NCBI GenBank assembly: GCA_938005265.1
Contig: CALLOA010000160.1
Coordinates: forward strand, 1 to 37,992
Direction of reading: 5' to 3'
Length of the DNA: 37,992 bases
From: an uncultured Granulosicoccaceae bacterium
GTDB taxonomy: Bacteria > Pseudomonadota > Gammaproteobacteria > Granulosicoccales > Granulosicoccaceae
The stretch's first letter is position 1. Each line of letters opens with the position of its first letter. This document shows, piece after piece, positions 6,631-29,477 of this stretch. The position numbers and the translations under genes were made by a program. The notes below the pieces were generated by a model that was not told the DNA's origin, made no database searches, and worked only from the letters and a program-made list of their open reading frames with translations.

Positions 6631-6660
6631 ATTGATGCCGCCCTAGTGCAAGGCATCAAT
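6631..6660. terminator. Stem-loop at the convergent ends of the hydrolase and dctM genes
   Basis: A perfect 9-bp stem, ATTGATGCC with GGCATCAAT (6631-6639 and 6652-6660), has a 12-base loop and overlaps the dctM stop codon. It lacks a T-tract, so a terminator role is only suggested by its position between convergent genes. Confidence 0.4.
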
Positions 6661-8529: not shown

Positions 8530-8725
8530 GGGATATCAGTTGATAATGTCGTTGGCGAAAATTATCGGCGGATATTGTTGGCGGAATTTGTTAACAGAAC
8601 CGGGAACTAAAACCACCCACAGAAACCGCGGGAAGTTCTCACCACGGCTTTATGACACAATCTATACACAGGGCTGCCGGCGTTGAACCAGCGACCAACA
8701 CCAAGCAGCCATGCATGGGCGCGAC

Positions 8726-11489: not shown

Positions 11490-11855
11490 TCAGGAAGCTG
11501 CCTGATTCCATTTATCAGGGATGTCCAACCATGCTTCCACTCCGACCGTTGCCACAACGGTAGTTCTGTTCGTTACCTCATCAAACACGTTCATTCCGCC
11601 CTTGACCGCAACCACCGTTGCCTGGCCACGCGGTAAGGTTGCCGCCACTGCAGCCGTTTCAACTTTTTCAGGTTCCTGTACGCCTACAGTGACTTTGACT
11701 TGCATCGATGCAGAATCGATGTCCAGTGCGTTAAACAGACTGATGGAGCTATGGTGCAAAGCATCCTGCACCGCTCGATTAGCCGCCTTTGTGTAGTCTT
11801 CACCGTACAGGTCATTACCCGTACCCATTTCCAGAATGATGCGTTGCAAAGCCAT
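11490..11855 (-). CDS. Lin0512-family conserved protein, second of two adjacent paralogues
   Basis: A 121-residue soluble protein. It shares with the preceding gene an N-terminal motif of the form E-MG-G-DL-G-DYTKAA-RA-QDAL and a central V-VTV-V-P-V block, about 40% identity by eye. Both fit the conserved hypothetical family named after Listeria Lin0512, whose function I do not know. Its ATG directly follows the TAG of the upstream paralogue with no spacer, and a G-rich site (GGGGGG) lies upstream, so the two are translationally linked. This suggests they form a hetero-oligomer. It is the last gene of the dddP operon on this strand. Confidence 0.75.
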   Translation of the reverse strand: MALQRIILEMGTGNDLYGEDYTKAANRAVQDALHHSSISLFNALDIDSASMQVKVTVGVQEPEKVETAAVAATLPRGQATVVAVKGGMNVFDEVTNRTTVVATVGVEAWLDIPDKWNQAAS

Positions 11856-12212
11856 CTACCCTACCCCCCGTTCTTCCAGATCGAGATAAACTACGGCAGC
11901 TGCATTTGCCATCACAGTTATTTTGGAACCATCCGCACTGGGCATATCCAGCCCCCCCTCAACCACCTTTACTTCAGATTGTCCGTAAGGCAGAACAGCC
12001 TGAACGACTGCAGCATCTACCTCAGAAGGCTTTGCCACGGCAACGGTTACTTCTACCATCATCTTTTCACGATCAACACCAAACGCTGGTGCAACGGTTA
12101 AAGAATTATGCCGGAGGGCATCCTGTAAAGCGCGAACTGCAGCTTTGGTATAATCCTGACCCTGAAGGTCAGTGCCCATACCAAACTCCACTACCATGCG
12201 TTTCTTACTCAC
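11856..12212 (-). CDS. Lin0512-family conserved protein, first of two adjacent paralogues
   Basis: A 118-residue soluble protein with the motif FGMGTDLQGQDYTKAAVRAL at residues 10-29, the family hallmark, followed by an alternating beta pattern. It starts with GTG at 12212, 45 nt behind dddP, and ends directly against the ATG of its paralogue. Compared with the partner it keeps the Gly-rich and Asp residues of the motif (GMGTDLQGQDYT against GTGNDLYGEDYT). Function is unknown. Operon position places it with dddP, so a role in handling the DddP substrate or product is possible. Confidence 0.75.
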   Translation of the reverse strand: MSKKRMVVEFGMGTDLQGQDYTKAAVRALQDALRHNSLTVAPAFGVDREKMMVEVTVAVAKPSEVDAAVVQAVLPYGQSEVKVVEGGLDMPSADGSKITVMANAAAVVYLDLEERGVG

Positions 12213-16107: not shown

Positions 16108-17061
16108 TCAGTCCGGGGTGAAATTTTCGTGCCAGTGCTCTGCAATATCTATCCGTCGTGTCACCCAGACATCTTTTTTGCTTGCAACATAATCCAGGAA
16201 TCTGGCCAATGCTGCGGCCCTTCCCGGACGTCCAACCAGACGGCAGTGCAAACCGACCGACATCATGCGCGGCTGCCCGGCTTGCCCTTCAGCCAGTAAA
16301 AGATCAAAACTGTCTTTCAGATATTGCTCAAATTGTGAACCACTGTTAAAGCCCTGTGGTGTAGCAAAACGCATATCGTTGGCATCAAGCGTATAAGGCA
16401 CCATCAATTGCCAGCCATTTCCCGCATTCGCGTTTGCTTGCCAGTAAGGAAGCTCATCAGCGTAAGAATCAGCACAATAGCGAAACCCGGGAACGGCCGC
16501 AGCCAGATTGATGGAATGTTCTGACGTGCGCCCTGTGTAGATTCCAACCGGTGCTGAACCTGTTACGCGCTCATGAATGGCAATTGCCTGCATCAAATGA
16601 TCTTTCTCAGCCTCTTCAGAAAAATCTTTGTAATCGATCCACTTCAGACCATGTGTTGCGATTTCCCAGTCAGCCTCCAGCATTGCAGCCACAGCATCCG
16701 GGTTTTTCTCCATTGCAGTTGCGACTCCAAATACGGTAACGGGCATCTGCCGTTCAGTGAATAATCGCCACAAGCGCCAGAAACCACTACGTGAACCGTA
16801 CTCATAAATAGACTCCATGTTCATGTGCCGCTGACCGGGCCAGGCGGCCGCGCCGACTATCTCTGACAAAAAAGCCTCAGAGGCGGCATCACCGTGAAGA
16901 ATATTATTTTCACCACCTTCCTCGTAGTTGATGACAAATTGCAGTGCCAGCTTTGCATTACCGGGCCAGGCCGGATCCGGTGTTGTACGACCGTAACCAA
17001 CCATATCGCGAGGATACCGGCCATCGCCATTGTTATCGTTATTATGCTGAGTCATATTCAT
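16108..17061 (-). CDS. puuE: Allantoinase PuuE (polysaccharide-deacetylase fold)
   Basis: A 317-residue NodB-fold protein matching the PuuE type of allantoinase, which opens the ring of (S)-allantoin to allantoate without the binuclear metal site of the amidohydrolase type. Visible family text includes RYPRDMVGYGRTTPDP at the N terminus, INYEEGGE, YEYGSRSGFWRLWRLF, PVTVFGVATAMEKNP, EIATHGLKWIDY and GIYTGRTSEHS. Length is normal (about 300-310 in relatives). It is the last gene of the leftward seven-gene operon, 67 nt behind hpxW. The ATG at 17061 follows a G-rich site. Its neighbours supply the steps after allantoate. Confidence 0.92.
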   Translation of the reverse strand: MNMTQHNNDNNGDGRYPRDMVGYGRTTPDPAWPGNAKLALQFVINYEEGGENNILHGDAASEAFLSEIVGAAAWPGQRHMNMESIYEYGSRSGFWRLWRLFTERQMPVTVFGVATAMEKNPDAVAAMLEADWEIATHGLKWIDYKDFSEEAEKDHLMQAIAIHERVTGSAPVGIYTGRTSEHSINLAAAVPGFRYCADSYADELPYWQANANAGNGWQLMVPYTLDANDMRFATPQGFNSGSQFEQYLKDSFDLLLAEGQAGQPRMMSVGLHCRLVGRPGRAAALARFLDYVASKKDVWVTRRIDIAEHWHENFTPD

Positions 17062-17128
17062 CCCCTGCCTGGCAGTAAATCCAGATCAAGCTGGTTATTT
17101 GAACCACTGCTTTCTGATTAACGTTTCC

Positions 17129-18745
17129 CTAAAAAGCCGCCACGGAACCGTCACTACGTGGATCAGCGGCCCCTTCAATCGTACCCGCACGATCCCCTTT
17201 GGTATGCAATACCAGAGCGCCAGCGTGTCCCATAAATTCCTCAAACTCACCTACCTGTTCAACGTCATGACCTGCGGCCAGTAATTGCTGGTAAACCTCC
17301 GGCTTGAAACCCTGCTCAATTCGAAGATTGGTTTTTTCACTACCCCAGGTTTTACCGAGCAACCAGCGCGGAGCAGTTACGCACTGCTGCAGTGCCTGGC
17401 CGTAATGAGCATAGCGACTGAACACCATCGCCTGGGTCTGTGGCTGGCCTTCGCCTCCCATGGTGCCGTAGGGCATCACCCGGCCATCACCCAGCACAGC
17501 CATAGCCGGCTGGATCGTATGAAACGGGCGCCGAAATGGTTGCAGGCAATTATGATGATCGGCGTCCAGTGAGAAACTGGTGCCGCGATTCTGCCAGGTA
17601 ATGCCGGTCTCTGGCAGCACAACACCCGAACCGAACTCCCAGAAAACACTCTGGATAAAACTCACCGCACACCCATGTTTATCTACGGCTCCCAACCATA
17701 CCGTATCGCCACCAGCAGGAGCCTGAGGCCATGGTGCGGCTTTGTTAAGATCCACGCTGCCAACCAGTTCCCTGATCATGTCATCGCTCAGAAAGCTGCT
17801 GGCCTGCTGTTGCATATAGGCAGGATCAGTGACATGGCTATCACGAATACGAAACGCAGCCTTGGTGGCTTCAACCAGTGCATGCACGTAAGCGAAATCA
17901 TCGGCAATGGGTGCAGCTCCTTGTTGATGCAGCTGGTCAAACACGCCGAGCAACAAAAGTGATGCTAGCCCTTGTGTAGGTGGTGGCATGTTGTAAAGAC
18001 TGTGCTCGCGAATCTTTAACGCCAGCGGCTCGACATCCAGAGCATTATGTCGTGTAAGGTCGCTGTGACGTAAGGGGCTTCCAGCAGCTTCCAGATCCTT
18101 GGCAATGGATGCAGCGAGATCGCCACGATAATAATCACCCAGTCCAGCGCTAGCCAGTTGCTCAAGCGTTGATGCAATGCGCTCCTGTAACAACTTCGAA
18201 CCTTCGGCTACGGGTTTGCCACCCGGCAAATATCGCTCTGCAAAACCGGGTTGCGGTTCAAGCTGATCGCGTTTTCCTGCTGCATTGTCTGACAGCGTGG
18301 CCGTAACCGCGACACCGTTTTTCGCATGACTTACGGCATCAGCCAGCAAGCGATGCAAAGGCAAACGATTCCCTGGAAGCGCTTGACCCAACTCCAATGC
18401 GCGCTGCCAACCCGACACAGCCCCTGCAACTGTCACGGCTGCCAATGGCCCACGATCGGGAATTTGATGGAGCTTCTGATTCTTATACCAGTCAATATCA
18501 GCCAGCCCCGCTGCGGCACCGCAGGCATCAACAGCATTGACCTTGCCATCCGGCATACGTATCAACCAGAAGTTGTCACCGCCTAATCCGTTCATGTGCG
18601 GGTAAACAACTGCGATGGTACTGGCGGCGGCAACCATTGCCTCGATAGCGCTGCCGCCCTCTCTGAGTACGGCAATACCTGCCTGCGAGGCCAGATGGTG
18701 CGGTGCCACCACCATACCGTTATAGCTTTTTGGAGTTTGCAGCAT
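17129..18745 (-). CDS. hpxW: Gamma-glutamyltransferase-family Ntn hydrolase, probable oxamate amidohydrolase HpxW
   Basis: A 538-residue GGT-fold protein. It has the processing and nucleophile Thr348 in AGGDTVWL, preceded by the large-subunit portion, plus the family motifs GLGGDNFW (53-60), QNRGTSFSLD (385-394) and GTMGGEGQPQTQ. It has no signal peptide, unlike true periplasmic GGT, so it should self-cleave and act in the cytoplasm. Klebsiella HpxW is a GGT homologue that hydrolyses oxamate to oxalate and ammonia. Because the same operon encodes a complete oxamate transcarbamylase that would make oxamate, that role fits best here. The strong context supports the call; sequence alone would allow another GGT-like amidase. 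GGAAA lies eight bases before the ATG. Confidence 0.8.
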   Translation of the reverse strand: MLQTPKSYNGMVVAPHHLASQAGIAVLREGGSAIEAMVAAASTIAVVYPHMNGLGGDNFWLIRMPDGKVNAVDACGAAAGLADIDWYKNQKLHQIPDRGPLAAVTVAGAVSGWQRALELGQALPGNRLPLHRLLADAVSHAKNGVAVTATLSDNAAGKRDQLEPQPGFAERYLPGGKPVAEGSKLLQERIASTLEQLASAGLGDYYRGDLAASIAKDLEAAGSPLRHSDLTRHNALDVEPLALKIREHSLYNMPPPTQGLASLLLLGVFDQLHQQGAAPIADDFAYVHALVEATKAAFRIRDSHVTDPAYMQQQASSFLSDDMIRELVGSVDLNKAAPWPQAPAGGDTVWLGAVDKHGCAVSFIQSVFWEFGSGVVLPETGITWQNRGTSFSLDADHHNCLQPFRRPFHTIQPAMAVLGDGRVMPYGTMGGEGQPQTQAMVFSRYAHYGQALQQCVTAPRWLLGKTWGSEKTNLRIEQGFKPEVYQQLLAAGHDVEQVGEFEEFMGHAGALVLHTKGDRAGTIEGAADPRSDGSVAAF

Positions 18746-18810
18746 GGTGAATGTTTCCTGATAACTTGATAATTAGATTATTACGCACTGAGCCGTAAGT
18801 CCGGCAAGAT

Positions 18811-19968
18811 TCAATGCAAAGCATCATGCTCGTTAGCGGTTTTCGCAGTAAGCGCAGAACCGAAACGCTTATCAATGCAACTGCGACTGCAACTGAGACC
18901 GCGCAACTTCACCATCGGTGACATCGATTTAGCAGTACGCGATTGCCCGATATGCAGTGCCACTACCATACCGGCTAAAAAGTCCCAGCCGGAGGATGCA
19001 CCCATGGAATCGCATGCTGCAATGAGCTTTGCAACTTCAGCCTGCGGTTTTTGTGGCATCAGCAACAGCTCCGCGAGAGCGGTTATGATAGCCATGCTCG
19101 CATCATTGGCATTTCCGCAACATGCTTCATATAGGTGAGCGGCGGATATCGGATGAGTCCGGGACAGCATAGTGGAAACAAGCACAGACTTCAGCTCATC
19201 CAGGTATGGCGCTTTATCCGTCAGGTAAAACGCAGCGATGACACCACAGATAAAATCATCTCCCGAAGGCGTCAGCCCCGTGCCTGTTCCAAGCATGCCG
19301 AGAATTCCTGCAAACTGAGTCGATGGACGTGTAGATGTTTGCAAGCGATAAATATCCCGGCAACAACTTGCCAGAGCGTCATGTGAGTCGTAATGTGTGT
19401 CCACCGGTTTCATACCCTTAAAACATCGCTCTAAACTGAATTCAGTTTCAACCAGCCAGCCCAATGCCTTGATGCAAAAACTTTTATTGGGTGATGTTTG
19501 AAAAGACGCAAGCGACGCTGCATATAAACACTGCAAACAACCAGGTGAAATCCAGGTTTGTGCCGCTGCCAGATTTCCATTAACCGGAATGCGAGACTTT
19601 GCATCAAGCACATCACAGAAAGCGTAGTGCAGTTTCGTATCAGCACCCAAACGCAATATACGGGATTCACGGTCGTTAGATAACCGCGCGCCAACTTTCA
19701 AATAACGCTTCTCCGTTGCCGCCAGACCCGGAACACAACAATGTAACGGCCCGTCGCCCAACAAAGGATCAACAATACAAATAATATCGGGTTGAAAACA
19801 AGAGTCGCTGGCCTCACGTTTTGCAACCGTCGGAGGCAAGCAGGCTTGCAGGTAAATACTGCGCTGGAAAACAGCCAACACTTTAAAAGTTACCGCACGC
19901 GCAAGTAATGCGTCTGCTGTGGCTCCACAGCGTTGCACGTGAAGCACAAGGCCATGCTTGTTAATCAT
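18811..19968 (-). CDS. allH: DUF2877 protein, AllH-type subunit of oxamate transcarbamylase
   Basis: A 385-residue protein with the DUF2877 signature LGTGTGLTPSGDDFICG at about 226-242 and no signal peptide. In E. coli the homologue YlbF was reported to be one of three proteins (AllF, AllG, AllH) needed for oxamate transcarbamylase, which phosphorolyses oxalurate. The start ATG overlaps the carbamate kinase stop (ATGA), so the two are translated together. It has more than the usual number of Cys residues, and its C-terminal ~40 residues after ALHIGQSRTAKS are probably a lineage-specific tail. A 65-nt gap separates it from hpxW. Confidence 0.85.
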   Translation of the reverse strand: MINKHGLVLHVQRCGATADALLARAVTFKVLAVFQRSIYLQACLPPTVAKREASDSCFQPDIICIVDPLLGDGPLHCCVPGLAATEKRYLKVGARLSNDRESRILRLGADTKLHYAFCDVLDAKSRIPVNGNLAAAQTWISPGCLQCLYAASLASFQTSPNKSFCIKALGWLVETEFSLERCFKGMKPVDTHYDSHDALASCCRDIYRLQTSTRPSTQFAGILGMLGTGTGLTPSGDDFICGVIAAFYLTDKAPYLDELKSVLVSTMLSRTHPISAAHLYEACCGNANDASMAIITALAELLLMPQKPQAEVAKLIAACDSMGASSGWDFLAGMVVALHIGQSRTAKSMSPMVKLRGLSCSRSCIDKRFGSALTAKTANEHDALH

Positions 19969-20939
19969 GTATTTCGGCTGTCAGAAACAATGTGAGTGCC
20001 AGTACGTCCTTGCAAAGCATCAAAAGCATCATCGATATTTGCAATGATGACACGTTGCCCACCACCGTTTATGAATCGAATGGCTGCTTCTATCTTTGGC
20101 CCCATGCTGCCTGCCGGGAACTGCCCTTCATTTAAATATTTACGTACCTCACGCACGGTCACCTGCTCAAGTTTCTGCTCATTCGCTTGGCCGAAATTGA
20201 TCGCCACTTGAGACACCGCGGTCAATATCATCATCACCGGTATACCCAGGACATTAGCCATGTGCGCCGATGTCATGTCTTTATCAATAACCGCTATCGC
20301 ACCTTGCCTGGTTCCTTTGGGACCTCGTATAACCGGAATACCACCACCACCACCGGCAATCACAATCGTACCGCGCCGCGCCAACACCTGTACCAGCGAC
20401 ACATCACACACATGTCTTGGCATCGGCGATGCCACAACATGACGCCAGCCGCGGCCCGAGTCTTCTTTCATTGGCCAACCCAGCTCATTTGAGATCTGTC
20501 GGGCCTGTTCTTCGGTGTAAAAAGCACCAATCGGTTTTGAAGGATTCTCAAAGGCCGGATCATCAGCATCCACTTCAACCTGTGTCAGCAGGACCGCGCA
20601 GTGGCGTTCATTGTTCAGTTCGCGCAAGGAATTCTCGATTGCCTGCATCAGTAAATAGGCTATCCCGCCCTGACTGTGAGCCACGCAGATATCCAGCGGC
20701 ATCGGAGCAATACGCTCGCGGGTCAGAACCTGCCGCATCAGTATTTTGCCGACGACAGGACCATTACCATGGGTGATGACAAGTTCGTTGTCGAGCGACG
20801 TGAGTGGCAAAAGCGCTCGAGCCGTTGCTGCTGCAATGGCATTCTGTTCAGCAGAAGTACCTTCGATATCTTCCGGGTGCGTCGCATTGCCCCCCACTGC
20901 AACCAGCAAACGTTCAGGTATCTCCAGCGCTTCATACAT
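19965..20939 (-). CDS. allK: Carbamate kinase of the ureide pathway (AllK/ArcC type)
   Basis: A 324-residue carbamate kinase. The family motifs are clear: LLVAVGGNAT at the start, THGNGPVVG (phosphate binding) at about 56-64, VAHSQGGIAYLLMQ, the IVIAGGGGGIPV glycine loop, AVIDKDMTSA and GSMGPKIEAA. It transfers phosphate from carbamoyl phosphate to ADP, yielding ATP, CO2 and ammonia. Lying between allF and allH it should consume the carbamoyl phosphate released by the oxamate transcarbamylase, which is the energy-yielding step of the route. It starts at an ATG 38 nt behind allF. Confidence 0.93.
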   Translation of the reverse strand: MYEALEIPERLLVAVGGNATHPEDIEGTSAEQNAIAAATARALLPLTSLDNELVITHGNGPVVGKILMRQVLTRERIAPMPLDICVAHSQGGIAYLLMQAIENSLRELNNERHCAVLLTQVEVDADDPAFENPSKPIGAFYTEEQARQISNELGWPMKEDSGRGWRHVVASPMPRHVCDVSLVQVLARRGTIVIAGGGGGIPVIRGPKGTRQGAIAVIDKDMTSAHMANVLGIPVMMILTAVSQVAINFGQANEQKLEQVTVREVRKYLNEGQFPAGSMGPKIEAAIRFINGGGQRVIIANIDDAFDALQGRTGTHIVSDSRNT

Positions 20940-20977
20940 GGTCGATTAAACCCCTGTGCTGATAAAGTTGGTGCACG

Positions 20978-22609
20978 CTATCCCAATCCGGCCAGAATCT
21001 GTGCACGGCGTACGGCAGCGGCATTCGATTCGCACACTTGAACACCGTATTCGAGCAAGGCTGCAACCTGGGCCGCGAAATCCTGAGGGTCGTTTTCAGT
21101 ACCTGTAACTGATGCAACGATATGTGGAACCGCTTTGCCATCAGGGCGGGGAAACTTCTCCAGAACCCGAATAATGCTGGCAGCGGGATCTATATGCGAG
21201 CCGTAACCGAGAACACAATCCAGCAGAACCACAGCTGTCGTGTCATCAGACATTGACTGTTCAATTGCCGCATCACGAATGGCAGGCTCAATCATGGGGT
21301 GCGGTTTACCTCGAGTGAACTCGTCAGCGCCCAGATCAAGCAGGCAGTGGGCCGCCGGCAGATCAGCTCCACGGTTGATGGTGTCAGCGGCAGTATCCAA
21401 CTGCTCAACACCAGGAATCGAGGCATTGGACAGCAAGCCGGCATGAGCTCCAAGAATCACCTGTGCTTCCGCGCACAAAGTTCCACCACAATACAGGCCG
21501 CGTATAAAACGTCGCTGACTGTTGCTTGCAGTGGCGCCTGGTGTTGGTTCGCCAGAAGTATCAACTGCAGCGGAAGTCGACGCATCAAGAGAACCTTTGT
21601 ATGAGCGTGTTACGGCATTGGCTGCAGCTTCCAGCGTTGAGACCATCTGTATTTGACCCACTGCGTCAGCTGCGGAACCATCATCGCCAATAAAACAGAC
21701 CACTGCGGGCTTTTTGCTGGCAGCGACTCGTTGCAATACAAGATCGCGCACTTGTGCTGCAGGGGGTTTTGAGATCAGTACCAATGATTCGGTCGCATCG
21801 TCAGCATCCAGCAGGTCAAGTGCCTGCAGCGTTGAAATGCCACCGATTTGAGCTGACAGATCACGCCCACCCACACCGATCGCATGCGAGATACCAACCC
21901 CGGCTCTATCGAGCAAACAGGTTACTTCCTGAATTCCAGTGCCTGAAGCTCCTACCACCCCTACACTGCCGCGATTCACTCGATTGGCAAACGCCAGCGG
22001 CACACCGGCAATAATTGCAGTACCACAATCAGGGCCCATAACCAGACAACCCAGCTCACGCGCCTCCTGTTTTAATGCGAGTTCTTCATCAACCGAAACG
22101 TTGTCGCTGAATACCATCACATTCATACCATTGCGAATCGCCTTGCCCGCTTCCGCAGCAGCAAACTCACCCGGCACAGATATCAGAGCAAAATTGGCAT
22201 CGGGGCTTAACGCGACTGCCTGGCGAATCGAACGAACGGGCTGCTCACCGGAAGCTTTGCCGGCGCGCGAAGACGATGGCGCATCCAGTAACGTTTCAGC
22301 AAGTTTCAGTGCATTGTCTGCGGCATCAGATGTTGTCGCGGCCACTGCCATCACCAAATCGGATGGTGAAGCATCCACGTTCGCCTCCAACAATCCGGCG
22401 TTCTGCATGATTTCGATATTAGCCGGTGTCGCCATCATCAGGGCAGCGTCACTGACATCTTCAGCAGCTGTCAGCTGTTGCGACAATCGCATCAATGCTA
22501 CCGAGTCAAGGTAATACTGGCGCCGCAGGCGGTGATATACAAACAGATTACCGGTATCAGGCATGGGTAAATTTGGTGTTAGTGATAGACAGATAAAAAG
22601 ACCGGTCAA
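20978..22609 (-). CDS. allF: FdrA/AllF-type subunit of oxamate transcarbamylase
   Basis: A succinyl-CoA-synthetase-like protein of the FdrA group. It has the N-terminal YYLDSVALMRLSQQL and MATPANIEIM segments, then the CoA-ligase-like core: GPDCGTAII, VGVVGASGTGIQEV, GGRDLSAQIGG and a C-terminal LDLGADEFTRGKPHPM. In E. coli FdrA (AllF) was reported to be part of oxamate transcarbamylase. The start is uncertain. A TTG at 22609 would overlap the allG stop (TTGA), giving a 543-residue product. The first ATG is at 22564, and family similarity begins only at about 22545. No strong Shine-Dalgarno marks either. The C terminus ends at ILAGLG, without the extra tail discussed for the 77-residue gene. 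Confidence 0.88.
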   Translation of the reverse strand: MTGLFICLSLTPNLPMPDTGNLFVYHRLRRQYYLDSVALMRLSQQLTAAEDVSDAALMMATPANIEIMQNAGLLEANVDASPSDLVMAVAATTSDAADNALKLAETLLDAPSSSRAGKASGEQPVRSIRQAVALSPDANFALISVPGEFAAAEAGKAIRNGMNVMVFSDNVSVDEELALKQEARELGCLVMGPDCGTAIIAGVPLAFANRVNRGSVGVVGASGTGIQEVTCLLDRAGVGISHAIGVGGRDLSAQIGGISTLQALDLLDADDATESLVLISKPPAAQVRDLVLQRVAASKKPAVVCFIGDDGSAADAVGQIQMVSTLEAAANAVTRSYKGSLDASTSAAVDTSGEPTPGATASNSQRRFIRGLYCGGTLCAEAQVILGAHAGLLSNASIPGVEQLDTAADTINRGADLPAAHCLLDLGADEFTRGKPHPMIEPAIRDAAIEQSMSDDTTAVVLLDCVLGYGSHIDPAASIIRVLEKFPRPDGKAVPHIVASVTGTENDPQDFAAQVAALLEYGVQVCESNAAAVRRAQILAGLG

Positions 22610-23907
22610 ATACCGAGTTGCAGGGCAAAAGCTTCAAGAGCATCAGTAAAGCAGTCCATTGGTGCGCGTACAATGCCGGCGCCCACTTGCCCGATACCCG
22701 GTTCACGGTGAGCTATGCCAGTGTTAATTACTGGTGCCACACCCGCATCCACTACCCGACGAATGTCAATCCCGGTTGGCACGCCCTGATAGTCCAGCCC
22801 GGGAATACTCCACTCAGGATTTTCTGAAAAACAGATATCCAGCATACTACGTGTGTAGTTGCCAGCATCGGATGCTGCACCGGCACCGACGAAACCGGCA
22901 ACCGCTGGTGAGGCTCCCATGGCGAATCCACCGAGGCCGATAGTCTCAACAATCGTCGAATCCCCCATATCGGGGTTGGCATCTTTCTCAGTGAATCCGG
23001 GAAAATACAAACCTTGTGGCATCTCGACGGCTGCAGTGAACCAGCGATCGCCAAGCGAGGAAACGCGGATACCAAAGTCAGTGCCATTGCGAGACATGGC
23101 TGTGACAATTGTAGACATGGGTATGTCACGAACCGGATCCATTATTGATTTGCCTGTCGCCATACCGACATTCAGGAAAAATTGATCATTACCGCCCATA
23201 AAAGCGAGTAACTCAGCCAGCTGATCAGCATCTTTACTGACCCGCGCCAAATGCGGTGACAACTCTCGCAACAACAGCCCCGAACAGGCGACATTACGCT
23301 GGTGCATCTCATCCCCCATGGTCAAACCACGAGCAATGACGTTTTTAACATCCACGCCATCACTGCCACGCAATGCTTGCTGCATCAGCGGGCCGGCAAC
23401 ATCACGCAACCACGCTAGTCGTTTCAGCACACTTTCATCATTGCCACCAAATCGCATCACTTTGCCGAGACCTTCGTTTATTGCACAAAACGCGCGATTA
23501 CCAAACTTGCGATTTTCCACCACCATTAACGGCTGGCTGCGTGTAGTCATGCCTGTCATGGGCCCCACGGCATTAAAGTGGTGATTAGGATGAAACTCGA
23601 ATTCACCGGCAGCAGCCATATTTTCGGCATCTGCCAGCGACCCGGCCCAACCTTCAAAGACAGCGATGCCGGCAATCGCACCTCGCATGGGCCCGCACAT
23701 GCGAGACCAGTCGATAGGTGGTCCGGCATGCAAGATTTTTCGCCCTTCAGCCAGTTCCGGGATGGCCTCTTGTGCATTAACCACATCGACCAGCACGGGT
23801 TCAGCAGCCAGCATGCGCTCAACAGCCAGTTTGTTGGCCGCGGTAACCTGTGCCGCAATGTCGTCAGTTTTGGGAGTTGTCACAGATGACGGGATTTCAG
23901 AAGTCAT
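22606..23907 (-). CDS. allG: DUF1116 protein, AllG-type subunit of oxamate transcarbamylase
   Basis: A 433-residue DUF1116 (YlbE) protein. Recognisable blocks are HAGPPIDWSRMCGPMRGA, EFEFHPNHHFNAVGPMTGM, FGGNDESVLKRLAWLRDV, TMGDEMHQRN, FMGGNDQFFLNVGM and RNGTDFGIRVSSLGDRWF, spanning most of the length. The E. coli homologue was reported as AllG, one of three subunits of oxamate transcarbamylase. The start lies two bases after the stop of the 77-residue gene, with GGGA upstream, and its own stop overlaps the likely allF start. This tight packing indicates one complex made from one transcript. Confidence 0.9.
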   Translation of the reverse strand: MTSEIPSSVTTPKTDDIAAQVTAANKLAVERMLAAEPVLVDVVNAQEAIPELAEGRKILHAGPPIDWSRMCGPMRGAIAGIAVFEGWAGSLADAENMAAAGEFEFHPNHHFNAVGPMTGMTTRSQPLMVVENRKFGNRAFCAINEGLGKVMRFGGNDESVLKRLAWLRDVAGPLMQQALRGSDGVDVKNVIARGLTMGDEMHQRNVACSGLLLRELSPHLARVSKDADQLAELLAFMGGNDQFFLNVGMATGKSIMDPVRDIPMSTIVTAMSRNGTDFGIRVSSLGDRWFTAAVEMPQGLYFPGFTEKDANPDMGDSTIVETIGLGGFAMGASPAVAGFVGAGAASDAGNYTRSMLDICFSENPEWSIPGLDYQGVPTGIDIRRVVDAGVAPVINTGIAHREPGIGQVGAGIVRAPMDCFTDALEAFALQLGI

Positions 23908-23909
23908 AT

Positions 23910-24143
23910 TTATGTCCCGACAATCGAAAGGATTTTGGCAAGGCGTGCGCCACCCGCGGGGGGTCGCCAGTCAAGTTGGACAACAGAAACACCCTGCGAC
24001 GCCAACTCCTCAGCGAATCCCGGCACACCCACATTGACGATATGGGGCGCAACGTTCAGCAAACTGGCTGCCGGTTTCAAAGGAGCAGCACCAGACCTCG
24101 CTATGGGGTCGGTTTTACCATTCTTGTTGTCGTTCAGACTCAT
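23910..24143 (-). CDS. 77-residue protein resembling a detached domain of the FdrA/YlbE system
   Basis: A small soluble protein that heads the leftward operon. Its first 25 residues are polar and probably disordered. The remainder contains a short ordered block, HIVNVGVPGFAEELASQG then VVQLDWRPPAGG. From memory this INVGL-x-FA-x-L-x-QG-x-V-x-x-V-x-WxPPAGG pattern is found as a terminal domain within some FdrA or DUF1116 proteins. Here it is encoded separately. It is spaced two bases from allG, so it is probably translated and a real small subunit rather than a chance frame. I cannot tell which larger protein it was split from. The divergent promoter region with an inverted repeat lies just upstream. 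Confidence 0.65.
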   Translation of the reverse strand: MSLNDNKNGKTDPIARSGAAPLKPAASLLNVAPHIVNVGVPGFAEELASQGVSVVQLDWRPPAGGARLAKILSIVGT

Positions 24144-24182
24144 GCTATGTGATTCACCAAACTATTCCGGGCACAAAGATTA

Positions 24183-24211
24183 TACTCCCACAGCTACTTG
24201 AGCTGTGAGTA
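24183..24211. promoter_or_regulatory. Inverted repeat in the divergent promoter region of the ureide operons
   Basis: Perfect 7-bp arms CACAGCT / AGCTGTG (24189-24195 and 24201-24207) have a 5-base spacer. They are continued by outer arms TACT / AGTA after a two-base bulge. It lies in the 103 bases between the starts of the leftward operon (24143) and the rightward operon (24247), a suitable place for an operator that controls both. No regulator gene is in the window, so the binding protein is unknown. No clear -35/-10 pair could be fixed. Confidence 0.45.
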
Positions 24212-24246
24212 CAGATTTCTCCGAAACCATGGGAATAGCACAATAA

Positions 24247-25056
24247 ATGAATGAATCTGAAGAAATCAGCATACGGCTTGACCATGCGCGAAAGGTGGCG
24301 CGTGAAGCCGCAGCTCTGGCGCTCAACTATTTCCGTGACATCCATGAACTGAAAATTGAAAGCAAGGGTACTCAGGATCCCGTATCAAACGCTGATCGCG
24401 AAGTTGAATTATTTGTTCGCCAACAGCTGTTAGCCGCTTTTACAGAAGACGGGATAATCGGTGAAGAACACGCGCCCGTAACCTCCAAAAGTGGATATAC
24501 ATGGGTTATTGATCCTATCGATGGCACTGCTAATTTCATTGTCGGCAGCCCCGGCTGGGCGGTAGTGATCGCATGCGTTCAGGCCGGCCATACGGTCGCT
24601 GGCGTGATTCACGATCCGGTCGCGGATGAACACTTTTGCACCAGACTGGGCCACGGCGCGCAACTCAACGACAAACCACTCAGAGTTGCCGATTCAACCA
24701 GCCTGAGTGACGGTATCCTGGCTGTGGGGCATTCCAGCCGCGTTCCAGTCAGCAACACCATCAGAGCACTGACAGAGATCATGAACGCGGGCGGTATTTT
24801 CTACCGCAATGGCTCAGGAGCTCTGATGCTGGCCTACGTGGCAGCCGGTCGCTTGATCGGTTACTGCGAACCCCACATGAATTGCTGGGATTGTATTGCC
24901 GGAATGCTGATGATCACAGAAGCGGGTGGCCGAATTGACCCGTATGACAGCGAAGCCATGTTGCAACAGGGACATGAGGTGGTGGCAGCCTGCCCGGGTA
25001 TTTATCCTGAACTGCAGGCCATCTGCGCTCGATCATTTAACAACGAGCTTGATTAA
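24247..25056 (+). CDS. Inositol-monophosphatase-family phosphatase
   Basis: A 269-residue member of the Mg-dependent, Li-sensitive phosphatase family. The metal-site motifs are complete: GEEH (72-75), DPIDGT (89-94) with the NF that follows, and NCWD (212-215) before an alanine/glycine-rich helix. Such enzymes remove phosphate from inositol phosphate, histidinol phosphate, PAP or related compounds. Which substrate applies here is unclear. It is the first gene of the rightward operon, divergent from the transcarbamylase genes, and 263 nt from allC. No phosphorylated intermediate in the ureide route is an obvious substrate, so its presence is unexplained. Confidence 0.87.
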   Translation: MNESEEISIRLDHARKVAREAAALALNYFRDIHELKIESKGTQDPVSNADREVELFVRQQLLAAFTEDGIIGEEHAPVTSKSGYTWVIDPIDGTANFIVGSPGWAVVIACVQAGHTVAGVIHDPVADEHFCTRLGHGAQLNDKPLRVADSTSLSDGILAVGHSSRVPVSNTIRALTEIMNAGGIFYRNGSGALMLAYVAAGRLIGYCEPHMNCWDCIAGMLMITEAGGRIDPYDSEAMLQQGHEVVAACPGIYPELQAICARSFNNELD

Positions 25057-25319
25057 GAAGCCCGGTCGCTTGCCCAAATGCTCCGCCTGCTTGATCGCTC
25101 GCCTGCAGCAGCTACCGACATACGGCCAAGCAGGACGCACTACTATACTGTGGTTTTCAATATCCGAGGTGGATCTGCAGCTACAGGGGCTAATCTGCGA
25201 ATCAACTGATATACAGTGGCTTCCAGAACCGCTACGCTATCAGGCTAACCTTAACAAACCCGATTTTCGGATTAAAACTGCGGCCTGGCGTTACCTCCAG
25301 GCCTGCGGCCTGCCAGATC

Positions 25320-26558
25320 ATGAACATGCCCAACGAAGATACAGCAAACACCCTGATGCAGCGGATAGCGGTTCTGGAGCAGATCTCAGAATCGCCGGAT
25401 TTTCTATGCCGACGCTTTGCCACTGCGGAGCATCGACGCGCCAATGATCAAGTCGCTGAGTGGATGAAAGCCGCCGGTTTAACTGTTCAAGAGGACCAGA
25501 TTGGCAACATTATCGGACGATTCGAAGGGATTGAAAATGACGCACCTGCGATCATGATGGGATCGCACCTGGACACCGTTGTAAAGGCTGGCAAGTACGA
25601 CGGCATGCTGGGTGTGTTGTGCGCCCTGGCTGCCGTTGAGCATTTTGCAAAAAGAGGCGAGCGACTACCATTTGCTCTGGAAGTTGTCGGTTTCGCAGAC
25701 GAAGAAGGTGTGCGCTACCACTCAACCTATCTGGGAAGCAAAGCGATAACCGGTAAGCTTGACGTGGCCGAGCTTGATCGGATTGATGGAGAAGGTATCA
25801 GTATGCGCAACGCACTGATTCAATTCGGCAAAGACCCTGAGCAATTGCATACGGCGAAGCGGCAGGCAAGCGACCTTCGCGGATTCATAGAGGTACATAT
25901 TGAACAAGGCCCGGTTCTGGAGCGTGAGAATCTGCCGGTCGGCGTCGTCACATCAATCGCCGGCGCAACGCGGCTTGCGGTGCAGTTGCACGGTGAGGCG
26001 GGCCATGCCGGAACCGTACCAATGCATCTCAGACGCGATACTCTCTGTGCTGCTGCTGAATCCATTTGCGCGATAGAGCGTATCTGTAAGGCAGACCCCG
26101 AACTCGTAGGTACGGTGGGACGTATTGACGCCGATCCGGGGGCATCAAATGTAATCCCCGGGCACACCACATTTACCGTAGATGTTCGTTCCCCCAGTGA
26201 TGAAAAAAGACTAAGGGCCATCGATGAAATCAAGCATCACATACTGAACGCTGCAGCCTCCCGGGGTGTTGAAGCTCAAATTGAACAGCCTCACGCGGAA
26301 CCAAGCATCGATTGCGATGCTGATATCAGCCGTATTATGGCTGAGGCTGTAGGCAATCACTGCACGAGCGTTCAATGGATTCCGTCGGGTGCCGGGCACG
26401 ACACTGCGGCCATGCTGGAAATGACGCCTTCGGGTATGCTGTTTGTTCGTTGCAAGGGAGGCATCAGCCACCATCCGGATGAATCGATTGAAGCAGAGGA
26501 TGGTGCCATTGCCATCAAGGTACTGATAGAGACACTACAAAAGCTGGCACAACAATAA
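25320..26558 (+). CDS. allC: Allantoate amidohydrolase AllC (M20 family)
   Basis: A 412-residue M20/M28-fold amidohydrolase with the AllC/N-carbamoyl-amino-acid hydrolase layout. Metal ligands are in order: His83 and Asp94 (GSHLDTV ... KYDG), Glu128/Glu129 (DEEG), His193 (EVHIEQGP) and the C-terminal HHPDE. The positions agree within two residues with those of E. coli AllC as I recall them. It hydrolyses allantoate to (S)-ureidoglycine, ammonia and CO2 in the cytoplasm. Related enzymes act on ureidoglycolate or N-carbamoyl amino acids; the location between PuuE and PucG steps favours allantoate. The first ATG is at 25320; an ATG two codons later is possible. No strong Shine-Dalgarno is seen. 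Confidence 0.87.
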   Translation: MNMPNEDTANTLMQRIAVLEQISESPDFLCRRFATAEHRRANDQVAEWMKAAGLTVQEDQIGNIIGRFEGIENDAPAIMMGSHLDTVVKAGKYDGMLGVLCALAAVEHFAKRGERLPFALEVVGFADEEGVRYHSTYLGSKAITGKLDVAELDRIDGEGISMRNALIQFGKDPEQLHTAKRQASDLRGFIEVHIEQGPVLERENLPVGVVTSIAGATRLAVQLHGEAGHAGTVPMHLRRDTLCAAAESICAIERICKADPELVGTVGRIDADPGASNVIPGHTTFTVDVRSPSDEKRLRAIDEIKHHILNAAASRGVEAQIEQPHAEPSIDCDADISRIMAEAVGNHCTSVQWIPSGAGHDTAAMLEMTPSGMLFVRCKGGISHHPDESIEAEDGAIAIKVLIETLQKLAQQ

Positions 26559-26577
26559 TCCACAATGACGATTTGAT

Positions 26578-27828
26578 ATGACTGACTCTGGCACACAACT
26601 GTTTGAAGAACTTGACCCGCAACCGAGATTGTTGATGGGCCCGGGACCTGTGGATGTCTATCCCCGAGTTCTGCGAGCCATGTCAACGCCCCTGCAAGGG
26701 CAGTTTGATCCTCAGTTCACTGAATACATGAACCAGGTTCAGGTGCTTTACCGGCAGGTATTCGAAACTGCCAATCACCAGACTTTTCTCGTCAACGGTA
26801 CAGCCCGTGCCGGCATAGAAGCATGTTTAACATCCATCATCGAAAAGGGAGATACGGTACTCGCGCCCATCTACGGCCGGTTTGGTCACTTGCTAAAAGA
26901 AATTGCAATGCGCGCAGGTGCAAACGCTGTCAGTATCGATACGGAATGGGGTCAGGTCTTCACCGCCGAGCAGTTTGAAGAAGCCATCGCCAAACACAAA
27001 CCTCGCCTTGTCGCAATCAGCCACGGCGATACCTCCACCACCATGAAGCAGCCACTGGCGGAGCTGTCTGCAATATGCAAGCAGCACGACGCTCTGCTGT
27101 ACATTGACGCAACGGCAACGTTAGGTGGCAACGCCTTACCGGTAGATGAATTGGGGCTTGATATGGTTAGTGCCGGATTGCAGAAGTGCTTGTCTGGCCC
27201 TCCGGGCTCTTCCCCGATCACATTCTCGGACGCGGTTGCAGAACGTTTGTTAAAACGTAAGCACACTGAAGCTGGCATCCGTTCGGCTGAGGCTGAAGCG
27301 CTGGAAGGTGATGGTCCGATCATACAGTCAAACTACTTCGATCTGCCGATGTTGATGGACTACTGGAGTCCCAAACGACTCAACCATCACACCGAATCAG
27401 CAAGTATGTTGTACGCTGCACGGGAATGTGCGCGCCTGTTACTGGAAGAAGGGTTAACCGCTTGTCAGCAAAGGCATCAACTGACATCTAAAGCCATGCG
27501 AGCCGGGCTGGAAGCGATGGGCCTCGAATTGTTTGGCGACCCGCAAAATCGAATGGATAATGTAACCGGGATATTTATACCCGAAGTTTGTGGTGATGGT
27601 GCTGCTCTTCGCGCGCAGATGCTGGAAGACTTCGGCATTGAAATCGGTACATCCTTTGGGCCACTGGATGGCAAGATCTGGCGTATCGGTACAATGGGTT
27701 ATGTTTGTCATAAAGCTAACGTATTGCGTTGCTTGAGTGCATTGGAAATGACGCTGCACCGCAACGGATTCAAAACACCTCAAGGTGCCGGTGTGGATGC
27801 TGCATACCAGGTCTACAACAACAGCTAG
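26578..27828 (+). CDS. pucG: Ureidoglycine-glyoxylate aminotransferase PucG
   Basis: A 416-residue class V aminotransferase. The PLP Lys203 is in GLQKCLSGPPG and the pyridine-binding Asp177 in YIDATA; MGPGPVDVYP opens the fold. Two residues reported to separate ureidoglycine aminotransferases from alanine-glyoxylate ones are present: Gln42 in GQFDPQF (where AGTs have His) and Asn269 in RLNHHTES. Their spacing of 227 equals that of Gln37 and Asn264 of Bacillus PucG. The reaction is ureidoglycine + glyoxylate to oxalurate + glycine. It starts 19 nt after allC and is followed by the DUF1028 gene. Oxalurate is the substrate of the divergently encoded transcarbamylase. Confidence 0.92.
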   Translation: MTDSGTQLFEELDPQPRLLMGPGPVDVYPRVLRAMSTPLQGQFDPQFTEYMNQVQVLYRQVFETANHQTFLVNGTARAGIEACLTSIIEKGDTVLAPIYGRFGHLLKEIAMRAGANAVSIDTEWGQVFTAEQFEEAIAKHKPRLVAISHGDTSTTMKQPLAELSAICKQHDALLYIDATATLGGNALPVDELGLDMVSAGLQKCLSGPPGSSPITFSDAVAERLLKRKHTEAGIRSAEAEALEGDGPIIQSNYFDLPMLMDYWSPKRLNHHTESASMLYAARECARLLLEEGLTACQQRHQLTSKAMRAGLEAMGLELFGDPQNRMDNVTGIFIPEVCGDGAALRAQMLEDFGIEIGTSFGPLDGKIWRIGTMGYVCHKANVLRCLSALEMTLHRNGFKTPQGAGVDAAYQVYNNS

Positions 27829-27863
27829 AACCAGGTTTCCTGACAACGAATTAAGGGTACGCC

Positions 27864-28541
27864 ATGACTTTCTCAATCTCCGGCAAATGCGAAAGAACCG
27901 GCATGTTTGGTGTCGCCATTACCACTTCATCGATTTGCGTTGGCTCACGTTGTCCGCACGCTCGTGCCGGCGTAGGCGCTGTTGCCACACAAAACATAAC
28001 CGATCCGAGTCTGGCAACACTGGTACTTGACCAACTGCAGGCCGGCGATGATGCTGCCACGGCGATAAACAAGGTGGTTAAAGACCGCGACAATATCGAA
28101 TACCGGCAACTGACCGCGGTTGATACTGAAGGCCGCACGGCACACTTCACGGGCAAGGAAATTCTCGGTATCCACAGCGTTGCAGAAGGCGAAAATTGTG
28201 TCGCGGCCGGCAATCTACTTTCGGGCCCGGAAATTCCAGCCGCTATGGTAGATGCCTTTAACCGCGATAGCTCGGCTCATCTTGCAGAAAGACTTTTAGG
28301 CGCACTGGAATCGGGAGTTGCGGCTGGTGGTGAAGCAGGCCCAACGCATTCGGCCGCATTGGTGGTTGCAGATAAAATGCCTTTCAAGCTGGTTGATTTG
28401 CGTGTCGACTGGGATGATGATGACCCGGTTTTGAAGCTGCGCCATTTATGGACTGGCTATGAGCCGCAGATGCTTGATTATCTCAACCGCGCGATCAATC
28501 CAACCGCAGCTCCCAGCTATGGGGTTGCCGGTGACCCCTGA
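27864..28541 (+). CDS. DUF1028 family protein (Ntn-hydrolase-like), unassigned role
   Basis: A 225-residue protein of the DUF1028 family. The N terminus, TFSISGKCERTGMFGVAI, follows the family pattern (TFSI-x-x-x-D/C-x-x-T-G), so Thr2 would become the N-terminal residue after Met removal. Other blocks are GVGAVATQN, DRDNIEYRQLTAVD and GNLLSGPE. DUF1028 proteins have a fold like N-terminal nucleophile hydrolases, but I know no proven reaction. AAGGG lies about seven bases before the ATG, and the gene is 35 nt behind pucG at the end of the rightward operon. This makes it a good candidate for an uncharacterised amide or ureide hydrolase in the pathway. Confidence 0.87.
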   Translation: MTFSISGKCERTGMFGVAITTSSICVGSRCPHARAGVGAVATQNITDPSLATLVLDQLQAGDDAATAINKVVKDRDNIEYRQLTAVDTEGRTAHFTGKEILGIHSVAEGENCVAAGNLLSGPEIPAAMVDAFNRDSSAHLAERLLGALESGVAAGGEAGPTHSAALVVADKMPFKLVDLRVDWDDDDPVLKLRHLWTGYEPQMLDYLNRAINPTAAPSYGVAGDP

Positions 28542-28645
28542 GATTACCAAGGGCGCTCGGGTCGGGAAGCGCGTCGGCAGCGAGAAACCGACCTGCCACC
28601 CTGGACTCCCCCAAAATGTACTAGGCTAGATGCCTGCGAGGCGTA

Positions 28646-29182
28646 CTAGGTGCATGCGAGGCTGGCTTCCAGCCGTAATCGTGCAATCTGGTGAATGTTG
28701 TCCAGCGCGAGGTTAAATTCCTGCTCCCTGCTGTTATCTATGCGGCTGGCAAACGCTTCCAGAATTTCGCAGCGTGTGCGATTACGCACAGCCATGATAA
28801 ATGGAAAGCCGAATTTGTCCTTGTAATCCCGGTTAAAACGCTGGAAATTTTCGTACTCAACCTCACTACATTGATCAAGTCTGGCGCTGGATTGTTCATC
28901 AGTGGAGTGACTGGTCAGTTCTCCTGTCACTGCAGCCCTGCCCGCCAGATCGGGGTGCGCTCGGATTAACGCCAGCTGAGGTTCCTCTCCGGCTTCACGA
29001 ACCACTGCAGCCATCGTGTCCAATAGTATGTCAGGCTCAACCACACAGGCTTTGCCCGGATTAGCCGAAAAATCAGAATCAAGTTTTTCCCAGGCACGCG
29101 CTGCTATCCACTCCGAATGCTCATAAAGAGCGCCATAGGTTTCAACGAAGCGGTCTTGATCCTCTATCCAGATATTAGTCAT
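28646..29182 (-). CDS. uraD: OHCU decarboxylase UraD
   Basis: A 178-residue all-helical protein. The catalytic His76 is in IRAHPDLAGR and Glu96 in TDEQSSA; their spacing of 20 equals that of His67 and Glu87 in the zebrafish enzyme. A second family block is FNRDYKDKFGFPFIMAVRNRT, here seen as KFGFPFIMAVR (123-133). It decarboxylates 2-oxo-4-hydroxy-4-carboxy-5-ureidoimidazoline to (S)-allantoin. A longer frame upstream exists, but I start at 29182 because this ATG lies one base after the stop of the yheU-like gene, and family similarity begins there. The last codons before the stop, with the next ~20 bases, form an imperfect direct repeat (ACTAGG and TGCGAGGC twice), perhaps a recent small duplication. 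Confidence 0.9.
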   Translation of the reverse strand: MTNIWIEDQDRFVETYGALYEHSEWIAARAWEKLDSDFSANPGKACVVEPDILLDTMAAVVREAGEEPQLALIRAHPDLAGRAAVTGELTSHSTDEQSSARLDQCSEVEYENFQRFNRDYKDKFGFPFIMAVRNRTRCEILEAFASRIDNSREQEFNLALDNIHQIARLRLEASLACT

Positions 29183-29183
29183 G

Positions 29184-29477
29184 CTAGTCAGCCACTTGTT
29201 CATTATCGTCAGCCACACCAATTCCCACGGCTTCTGCATCTCTTTTATAAGCGCTTTCTTCCTCGCGAATTTGTTCCGATGACACCAGCGATGCTGATTC
29301 CAGTTCCACATTCCAAAGTAATCGGGCTCGACCCGATTCCAGAGAGCGACGCGCACCTTTTACCTTTTCTGCGGTAGTCAACTCTCGCGCCCCGTAGTCA
29401 GTGCCATCGCGCGTAACCATCTCCGACAGCAACCTGTCCAGCGTTTCATCATCCAATGTTTGCCAGGGTATTTCCAT
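29184..29477 (-). CDS. YheU-like (UPF0270) small protein with C-terminal extension
   Basis: A 97-residue protein. It opens MEIPWQTLDDETLDRLLSE, then VTRDGTDYGARE, the hallmark of UPF0270/YheU, normally about 70-75 residues. The remaining ~25 residues are an acidic tail with no resemblance known to me. I choose the ATG at 29477 because AGGA lies seven bases upstream and the family starts with M-x-IPW; an ATG five codons earlier (29492) has no such site. Its stop is one base from the uraD start, so the two are translationally coupled, which is unusual company for this family. Function unknown. Confidence 0.8.
   Translation of the reverse strand: MEIPWQTLDDETLDRLLSEMVTRDGTDYGARELTTAEKVKGARRSLESGRARLLWNVELESASLVSSEQIREEESAYKRDAEAVGIGVADDNEQVAD

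Follow-up and report, generated by a model that had tools for sequence, protein, structure and literature searches.

A predicted ureide route from allantoin to oxalate in an uncultured Granulosicoccaceae bacterium, with AllFGH and carbamate kinase in the place of the HPX amidase

Introduction

The genes for the oxamic transcarbamylase have been assigned only in 2024, as the anaerobic allantoin enzyme of Escherichia coli, in which AllFGH possess this activity by assay (PMC11326118) and about 80% of the allantoin is converted to oxamate, the main product (PMC8550087). Here we describe a locus on a stretch of 37,992 nucleotides (contig CALLOA010000160.1, positions 1 to 37,992 of the forward strand; hereafter the window) of an uncultured Granulosicoccaceae bacterium (assembly GCA_938005265.1), in which allF, allG, allH and a carbamate kinase gene stand together with genes for a PucG-type transaminase, predicted to form oxalurate, and an HpxW-type hydrolase, predicted to convert oxamate to oxalate. 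The window is contig 160 of a 4.9 Mb genome, which is 91% complete.

The single elements are known from different bacteria. Klebsiella pneumoniae is described as lacking allFGHK (excerpt of PMC11326118), and the formation of oxamate via ureidoglycine aminotransferase and HpxW has been discussed, in the excerpt of PMC5270733, without AllFGH. Genomic context has separated hpxW from ggt in 22 proteobacteria, with mention of an unclear third group (PMC3560190). PucG, AllFGH and HpxW are not joined in the excerpts of PMC3364942, PMC6022934, PMC10163214 and PMC12507026, and no description that joins them was found in the open-licence literature searched, to which the subscription literature may hold more.

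Results

A locus with genes for each step from OHCU to oxalate

As claimed in a preliminary description of this DNA, genes for every step from 2-oxo-4-hydroxy-4-carboxy-5-ureidoimidazoline (OHCU) to oxalate are located in the window, where UraD, PuuE, allantoate amidohydrolase, PucG-type transaminase, AllF, AllG, AllH, carbamate kinase and HpxW-type hydrolase are all encoded by open frames with family matches at 16108-29356. The locus consists of two divergent gene runs and one single gene. In the minus-strand run from 23907 down to 16108 (allG-allF-allK-allH-hpxW-puuE) two neighbouring pairs overlap by 4 bp and no gap exceeds 67 bp, and the plus-strand run at 25320-28541 (allC-pucG-DUF1028) has gaps of 19 and 35 bp. 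The pathway genes are:

16108..17061, minus strand: puuE, cofactor-independent allantoinase, predicted to convert allantoin to allantoate (TIGR03212, 506 bits, cut-off 425)
17129..18745, minus strand: hpxW, N-terminal nucleophile (Ntn) hydrolase of the gamma-glutamyltranspeptidase (GGT) family, predicted oxamate amidohydrolase (match to PDB 5hft)
18811..19968, minus strand: allH, oxamate transcarbamylase subunit (PF11392, 67 bits, cut-off 25)
19965..20939, minus strand: allK-type carbamate kinase (NF009007, 327 bits, cut-off 266; under the cut-off of TIGR00746 with 333 of 358 bits)
20978..22609, minus strand: allF (fdrA), oxamate transcarbamylase subunit, with a 4-bp overlap with allG (NF004760, 488 bits, cut-off 433)
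22606..23907, minus strand: allG (ylbE, DUF1116), oxamate transcarbamylase subunit (PF06545, 297 bits; PDB 3clq, an uncharacterized protein, E 9e-120)
25320..26558, plus strand: allC, allantoate amidohydrolase, predicted to convert allantoate to ureidoglycine (NF006775, 525 bits, cut-off 479)
26578..27828, plus strand: pucG/hpxJ, predicted ureidoglycine-glyoxylate aminotransferase, converting ureidoglycine and glyoxylate to oxalurate and glycine (PDB 3nnk, E 5e-147; PDB 3isl, PucG, E 5e-124; tree)
28646..29356, minus strand, standing alone: uraD, OHCU decarboxylase, predicted to convert OHCU to allantoin (TIGR03164, 188 bits, cut-off 96)

The three AllFGH subunits are encoded together, with NF004760, PF06545 and PF11392 all matched over cut-off within 18811-23907. 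The allantoate amidohydrolase is below the AllC model TIGR03176 (266 of 598 bits), and the listed uraD frame probably begins too early, as the profile match starts from residue 66.

The proposed route and its energy yield

Homology, the closest solved relatives and the repeated gene context support the predicted route and gene roles, and back the earlier proposals of oxalurate formation by PucG, ATP formation through AllFGH and the kinase, and glycine output. We consider it probable that the locus encodes a ureide route by which OHCU-derived allantoin would be converted to oxalate, glycine, ammonia and CO2, with one ATP saved. In this route, UraD would convert OHCU to allantoin and PuuE allantoin to allantoate, from which AllC would produce ureidoglycine with release of NH3 and CO2. 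PucG would transfer the amino group of ureidoglycine to glyoxylate, yielding glycine and oxalurate. AllFGH would cleave oxalurate by phosphorolysis rather than hydrolysis, and of the two products, oxamate and carbamoyl phosphate, the latter would be used by carbamate kinase to form ATP. Hydrolysis of oxamate to oxalate and NH3 by HpxW would also pull the transcarbamylase forward. The four nitrogens of allantoin would leave as three NH3 and one glycine, with the inferred sum allantoin + glyoxylate + ADP + Pi + water -> glycine + oxalate + 3 NH3 + 2 CO2 + ATP.

Supply of OHCU and fate of oxalate in the same genome

The genome possesses predicted OHCU-forming genes for xanthine dehydrogenase, with an XdhB match over cut-off at a contig end, and for a PuuD-type urate oxidase directly beside 5-hydroxyisourate (HIU) hydrolase (TIGR02962, 127 bits, cut-off 87). 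A uricase was considered and rejected for this genome, as the search with PF01014 gave no match and the PuuD type is found instead. The ureidoglycine aminohydrolase AllE was not found over cut-off in this 91% complete genome (best match 22.8 of 200 bits), so that ureidoglycine would go via PucG.

On contig 22 of the same genome (locus L114), oxalyl-CoA decarboxylase Oxc (987 bits) and formyl-CoA transferase Frc (702 bits) are encoded together with formate-tetrahydrofolate ligase, the formate dehydrogenase alpha subunit, a TctA-family transporter gene and a GntR-family regulator, a cluster which we predict to serve oxalate oxidation. The joint location of the Oxc, Frc and formate dehydrogenase genes on another contig suggests that the route probably does not stop at oxalate, contrary to the preliminary description. 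Among 40 genomes searched, the own genome included, Oxc is present in 8 of 10 AllG-bearing versus 2 of 30 AllG-free genomes and, within the same family, in 8 of 10 with versus 2 of 15 without AllG (Fisher 0.002, relatedness uncorrected).

Distribution of the layout and linkage of pucG with allG

A scan of named genomes with AllG, which favours AllGs like that of the window, gave 146 stretches with 141 confirmed relatives, of which 80 were kept. Gene presence was counted by tblastn with self-chosen identity cut-offs, because the codon-scored gene caller misses some genes. The occurrence of pucG, allFGH and hpxW in one place, as highlighted in the preliminary description, is real but not peculiar to this locus, as pucG is found in the fetched stretch of 35 of the 80 named AllG loci. 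Of these named loci, 44 are well flanked, with 7 kb or more to each side; pucG is present in 20 and hpxW in 33 of the 44, the combinations being pucG, hpxW and allC (10), pucG and hpxW (4), pucG and allC (3), pucG with an ATCase-like (aspartate transcarbamoylase-like) and an asparaginase-like gene (3), hpxW without pucG (19) and none of these genes (5). The presence of hpxW in 19 of the 24 well-flanked loci without pucG fits oxamate as a shared intermediate.

The loci with linked pucG and allG number 45 including the window, or 42 distinct ones when three pairs identical in PucG and AllG are merged, and their record titles include Granulosicoccaceae, Rhodospirillales, Rhodobacteraceae, Hyphomicrobiales, SAR324 and others. 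As in the window, hpxW-allH-allK-allF-allG is divergent from pucG in L113. Included in the 45 are all nine AllG loci, apart from the window's own, that a search of 40 relatives yielded; each comes from the same family and has pucG within 0.4 kb of allG. Eight of these have the order allC-allK-pucG-allG with no hpxW in the stretch, and in all eight genomes an HpxW-type gene is located on another contig, present only as pieces in G019 and G021 (search of 24 self-chosen genomes, two of which occur under two handles). When 397 genomes were drawn evenly from the phylum, 17 had AllG over cut-off, 28 had PucG (E up to 1e-95) and six had both (Fisher 5e-4, relatedness uncorrected). In the AllG tree of 98 rows, some pucG-less rows of which are short contigs, the pucG-linked rows are spread over several branches with 13 changes, at least two of them forced by starred branches.

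These data also bear on the alternative that the locus consists of two neighbouring modules, with allC-pucG-uraD-puuE leading from allantoin to oxalurate and AllFGHK-HpxW acting on imported oxalurate or a related ureide. The two runs are indeed divergent in the window, the 19 well-flanked loci with AllFGHK and HpxW in the absence of pucG belong mostly to Bradyrhizobium and Afipia, and nitrifiers possess allFGHK without the upstream genes (excerpt of PMC12625717). On the other hand, puuE shares its run with allFGHK-hpxW, and the distance of pucG from allG, measured for 44 linked loci, is at most 0.4 kb in 38 of them, which makes two independent modules unlikely compared with the single path from OHCU to oxalate.

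AllFGHK in the place of the HPX amidase

For comparison, 14 loci were chosen by us from the 27 other PucG loci in the 397-genome draw; allFGH was not found in the stretches of these 14, and hpxW is nearby in 10. The co-occurrence of pucG and hpxW consequently corresponds to the known HPX layout and is not what distinguishes the locus, in which the notable part, other than described before, is that allFGHK takes the position of the HPX amidase. With two queries, an AtzE-family amidase from L129 (HpxY) and a further amidase from L126, an amidase was found nearby in 11 of the 14 allFGH-free PucG loci (exceptions L133, L136 and L137) and near pucG in 1 of the 45 allG-linked loci (Fisher 1e-8), or in 1 of 27 when the count is restricted to linked loci with 7 kb or more to each side of allG (Fisher 1e-6), with these values overstating independence as the linked PucGs form one clade. 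None of the queries HpxX, HpxY and the second amidase gave a match in the window itself. In a quick PucG tree of 58 rows, from which the fragment of L067 was omitted, the linked and the allFGH-free sets fall on two sides of one branch with a support of 95 by the Shimodaira-Hasegawa-like approximate likelihood ratio test (SH-aLRT).

HPX loci thus probably hydrolyse oxalurate, while the allFGHK-linked loci would phosphorolyse it. The amidase in most of the related clusters compared is likely to waste the energy that splitting with phosphate would save. HpxY is called oxalurate amidohydrolase in the text of PMC12625717, the figure legend of which names it otherwise.

Identity of HpxW, AllFGH and PucG

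The HpxW-type protein of the window has its best PDB match in 5hft, with E 2e-95 for the large chain and 2e-68 for the small one versus 9e-49 for 2e0w, and its Thr348 aligns to residue 1 of the 5hft small chain. Both PDB entries are named gamma-glutamyltranspeptidase; we take 5hft to be the Klebsiella oxamate amidohydrolase HpxW, and 2e0w is presumably an E. coli GGT. The window protein is 49% identical to a gene product of L129, the gene of which adjoins hpxX and hpxZ that exceed the cut-offs of the NCBI HpxX and HpxZ models (oxalurate catabolism proteins). Full-length matches form a group at 57-65% identity, separate from other GGT-family matches at no more than 40%. A reading of the protein as GGT was rejected, as TIGR00066 is matched with only 316 of 358 bits, under its cut-off, and 5hft far better than 2e0w.

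The oxalurate and oxamate assignments might nevertheless be a transfer of names, if AllFGH used a different ureido acid and the GGT-family protein a different amide as substrate. AllG relatives do have different neighbours elsewhere, such as ArgJ and a creatininase-family gene in L035, and when 12 more AllG loci were retrieved from the 397-genome draw, AllG was only 27-52% identical to that of the window in 11 of them. As oxalurate is the expected product of the neighbouring PucG, the closest relatives of the GGT-family protein are those of the HpxW group, to which the gene adjoining hpxX and hpxZ in L129 belongs, and the occurrence of Oxc tracks AllG in relatives, we regard other substrates as improbable and keep oxalurate and oxamate as the predicted ones.

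The PucG-type protein has its best PDB match in 3nnk, named ureidoglycine-glyoxylate aminotransferase (493 bits), followed by 3isl (417 bits), and the reading as alanine-glyoxylate aminotransferase (AGT) was rejected on the scores of 3nnk versus 1vjo, the best AGT-type match (261 bits). Although PucG belongs to the same fold family as AGT, it is very improbable that it is an ordinary alanine- or serine-glyoxylate aminotransferase which forms no oxalurate, given E 5e-147 for 3nnk versus 1e-76 for this nearest AGT-type chain, the location of pucG in a run with allC, and the motifs GQ[FY]DP and HHTE, which are kept in all 57 PucG sequences that have 390 or more residues and aligned with GHLDP and HHTA in 1vjo. 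A third motif, [ST]NYFD, is kept in 47 of the 57.

Observations that weigh against the proposed route

Several observations count against the route as proposed. On the chemical side, PucG depends on a supply of glyoxylate, some of which could come from the breakdown of unstable ureidoglycine, and carbamoyltransferase equilibria in general favour carbamoylation (PMC4016543), so that the splitting of oxalurate may need pulling. With respect to HpxW, a curated NCBI model does not exist, and the window and L129 proteins are both under the GGT cut-off. The amidase contrast is blurred by the linked locus L067, which carries an amidase of 34% identity 2.4 kb beyond hpxW and a pucG that is a fragment, by 18 of the 45 linked loci having less than 7 kb on at least one side, and by amidases around allG in some pucG-less loci (L009, L053, L063, L147, L149 and L150); moreover, it may reflect one old swap and hence a single historical event. 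In the 397-genome draw the linkage occurs in the window's own genome only, the other five genomes with both AllG and PucG having them on different contigs or more than 1 Mb apart; the linkage is therefore confined to certain lineages. Finally, the AllG-bearing genomes G006 and G017 lack Oxc, and G015 was counted from a fragment just under cut-off.

A sister layout with an ATCase-like gene

Seven linked loci (L033, L043, L045, L075, L076, L077 and L085, from SAR324, Arenicellales, the SUP05 clade, Pedosphaera and others) have a different order, ATCase-like, asparaginase-like, allK, pucG, allG, allF and allH, cut in some by contig ends and in L033 without an allK match. Neither allC nor hpxW was found in these seven stretches. 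With 175 of 237 bits, the ATCase-like protein of L043 stays below the cut-off for ATCase, and in six of six scripted sequences STRT and HPTQ are kept and HSLP is present, with GCS in place of the ATCase RXQ. The motif H[ST]LP/GX[SC] denotes pseudo-ATCase group 2 in Table 1 of PMC4016543, and H(T/S)LP is given for the Rubrobacter enzyme itself in PMC4581275. This related Rubrobacter enzyme phosphorolyses allantoate (PMC4016543); if the ATCase-like enzyme acted likewise, two carbamoyl phosphates per allantoin would be predicted.

The asparaginase-like gene is present in all seven sister loci. A replacement of HpxW by its product is only partly borne out, being weakened by HpxW-type genes with 57-59% identity elsewhere in three of the seven genomes (those of L075, L077 and L085); the genomes of L033, L043 and L045 gave matches of at most 38% only, and that of L076 none. 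Barba et al. (PMC4016543) suggest a different role for a similar Rubrobacter gene.

Other genes of the window and other AllG contexts

Two further genes, which the preliminary description had left unmentioned, are located within or between the two runs:

24247..25056, plus strand, between both runs: inositol-monophosphatase-family gene (PF00459, 179 bits)
27864..28541, plus strand, third gene in the allC-pucG run: DUF1028 protein (PF06267, 224 bits; PDB 2imh, E 1e-18)

No counterpart of the phosphatase-family gene was found in the other relatives' loci searched. Among the loci compared, DUF1028 occurs only in the window and in the SAR324 sister locus L043 (3815-4453), where it adjoins a ureidoglycine aminohydrolase gene (TIGR03214 over cut-off); the term DUF1028 was not found in the open-licence literature searched. 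Elsewhere in the window, a gene with a TNT-type toxin domain is followed by two Imm63-type immunity genes (41-1992), the tripartite ATP-independent periplasmic (TRAP) transporter genes DctP, DctQ and DctM (6656-9814) lie 6 kb from the cluster, and two Lin0512-family genes adjoin each other (11490-12212), a pair also seen near hpxW in L113 (from 1639), of the same family.

AllFGHK and HpxW occur without pucG in the loci L047-L074, Bradyrhizobium, Afipia and kin among them. Frequent neighbours are a TetR-family gene (scanned in L050), a relative of cytosine-deaminase-like amidohydrolases (scanned in L041) and, judged by eye, branched-chain-type ATP-binding cassette (ABC) transporter-like genes; many have a second allF-allG pair of about 40-48% identity. 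Oxalurate, or a ureide related to it, perhaps has a different origin in these loci. AllG stands beside a creatininase-family gene in L031, L035, L036, L042 and L068, four of the five with an ArgJ-like gene (families scanned in L035), and neither pucG nor hpxW was found in these stretches. In the very small genome G154 (1.1 Mb), pucG, allC, hpxWXYZ and puuE are together (L138), as if purine nitrogen were recycled in a reduced genome.

Discussion

If the predicted route is true, an enzyme assigned to anaerobic allantoin use in E. coli would operate in a probably aerobic route of many proteobacteria, where it receives its substrate from a transaminase and its product is passed on to oxalate; the route is probably aerobic because the urate oxidase of the genome is expected to need respiration. 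It would place an ATP-forming step within purine nitrogen recovery, link purine breakdown to oxalate and formate oxidation, help to assign HpxXY, the amidase replaced by the module, and allow a function to be predicted for the ATCase-like genes of the sister loci. A more far-reaching proposal is a third bacterial ureide route beside ALL and HPX, in which a PucG subfamily is inherited with AllFGHK, oxalurate is phosphorolysed aerobically and oxalate burned for NADH, and in which the ATCase-like enzyme of the sister form also phosphorolyses allantoate to give two ATP per allantoin; we consider the chances of this proposal to be evenly balanced.

Among the known systems, the names hpxJ and hpxK presumably belong to the Klebsiella HPX pathway together with hpxWXYZ. 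The Klebsiella HPX pathway is alike in leading from a transaminase via oxalurate and oxamate to oxalate through HpxW, whereas most of the HPX-type loci compared carry an amidase (AtzE-family HpxY or other) where the window locus has AllFGHK. The anaerobic allantoin pathway of E. coli (AllB-AllC-AllE-AllD-AllFGH-AllK) shares AllFGH and carbamate kinase. It differs in that the allantoinase of the window is of the PuuE type, that the single transaminase PucG would replace AllE and AllD, and that HpxW follows AllFGH, by which oxamate would be consumed, which in E. coli is released.

The presence of allFGHK outside of enterics is shared with ammonia-oxidising archaea and comammox Nitrospira, in whose clusters the known upstream purine genes are absent according to the excerpt of PMC12625717, while the window has the chain from OHCU. 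The ureidoglycine transcarbamylase cluster of Rubrobacter xylanophilus likewise gains carbamoyl phosphate and ATP from an allantoin-derived ureide (PMC4016543), there by phosphorolysis of allantoate with an ATCase-like enzyme, a gene for which was not seen in the window; the sister loci combine the ATCase-like idea of Rubrobacter with AllFGHK. PucG of Bacillus subtilis (PDB 3isl; PMC10163214) belongs to the same transaminase family with the same expected reaction, yet is less similar to the window PucG than 3nnk. Cumulatively, the parts are known and their combination is a new variant in a coherent locus of predicted function, the new element being the replacement, with allFGHK where the HPX amidase otherwise stands.

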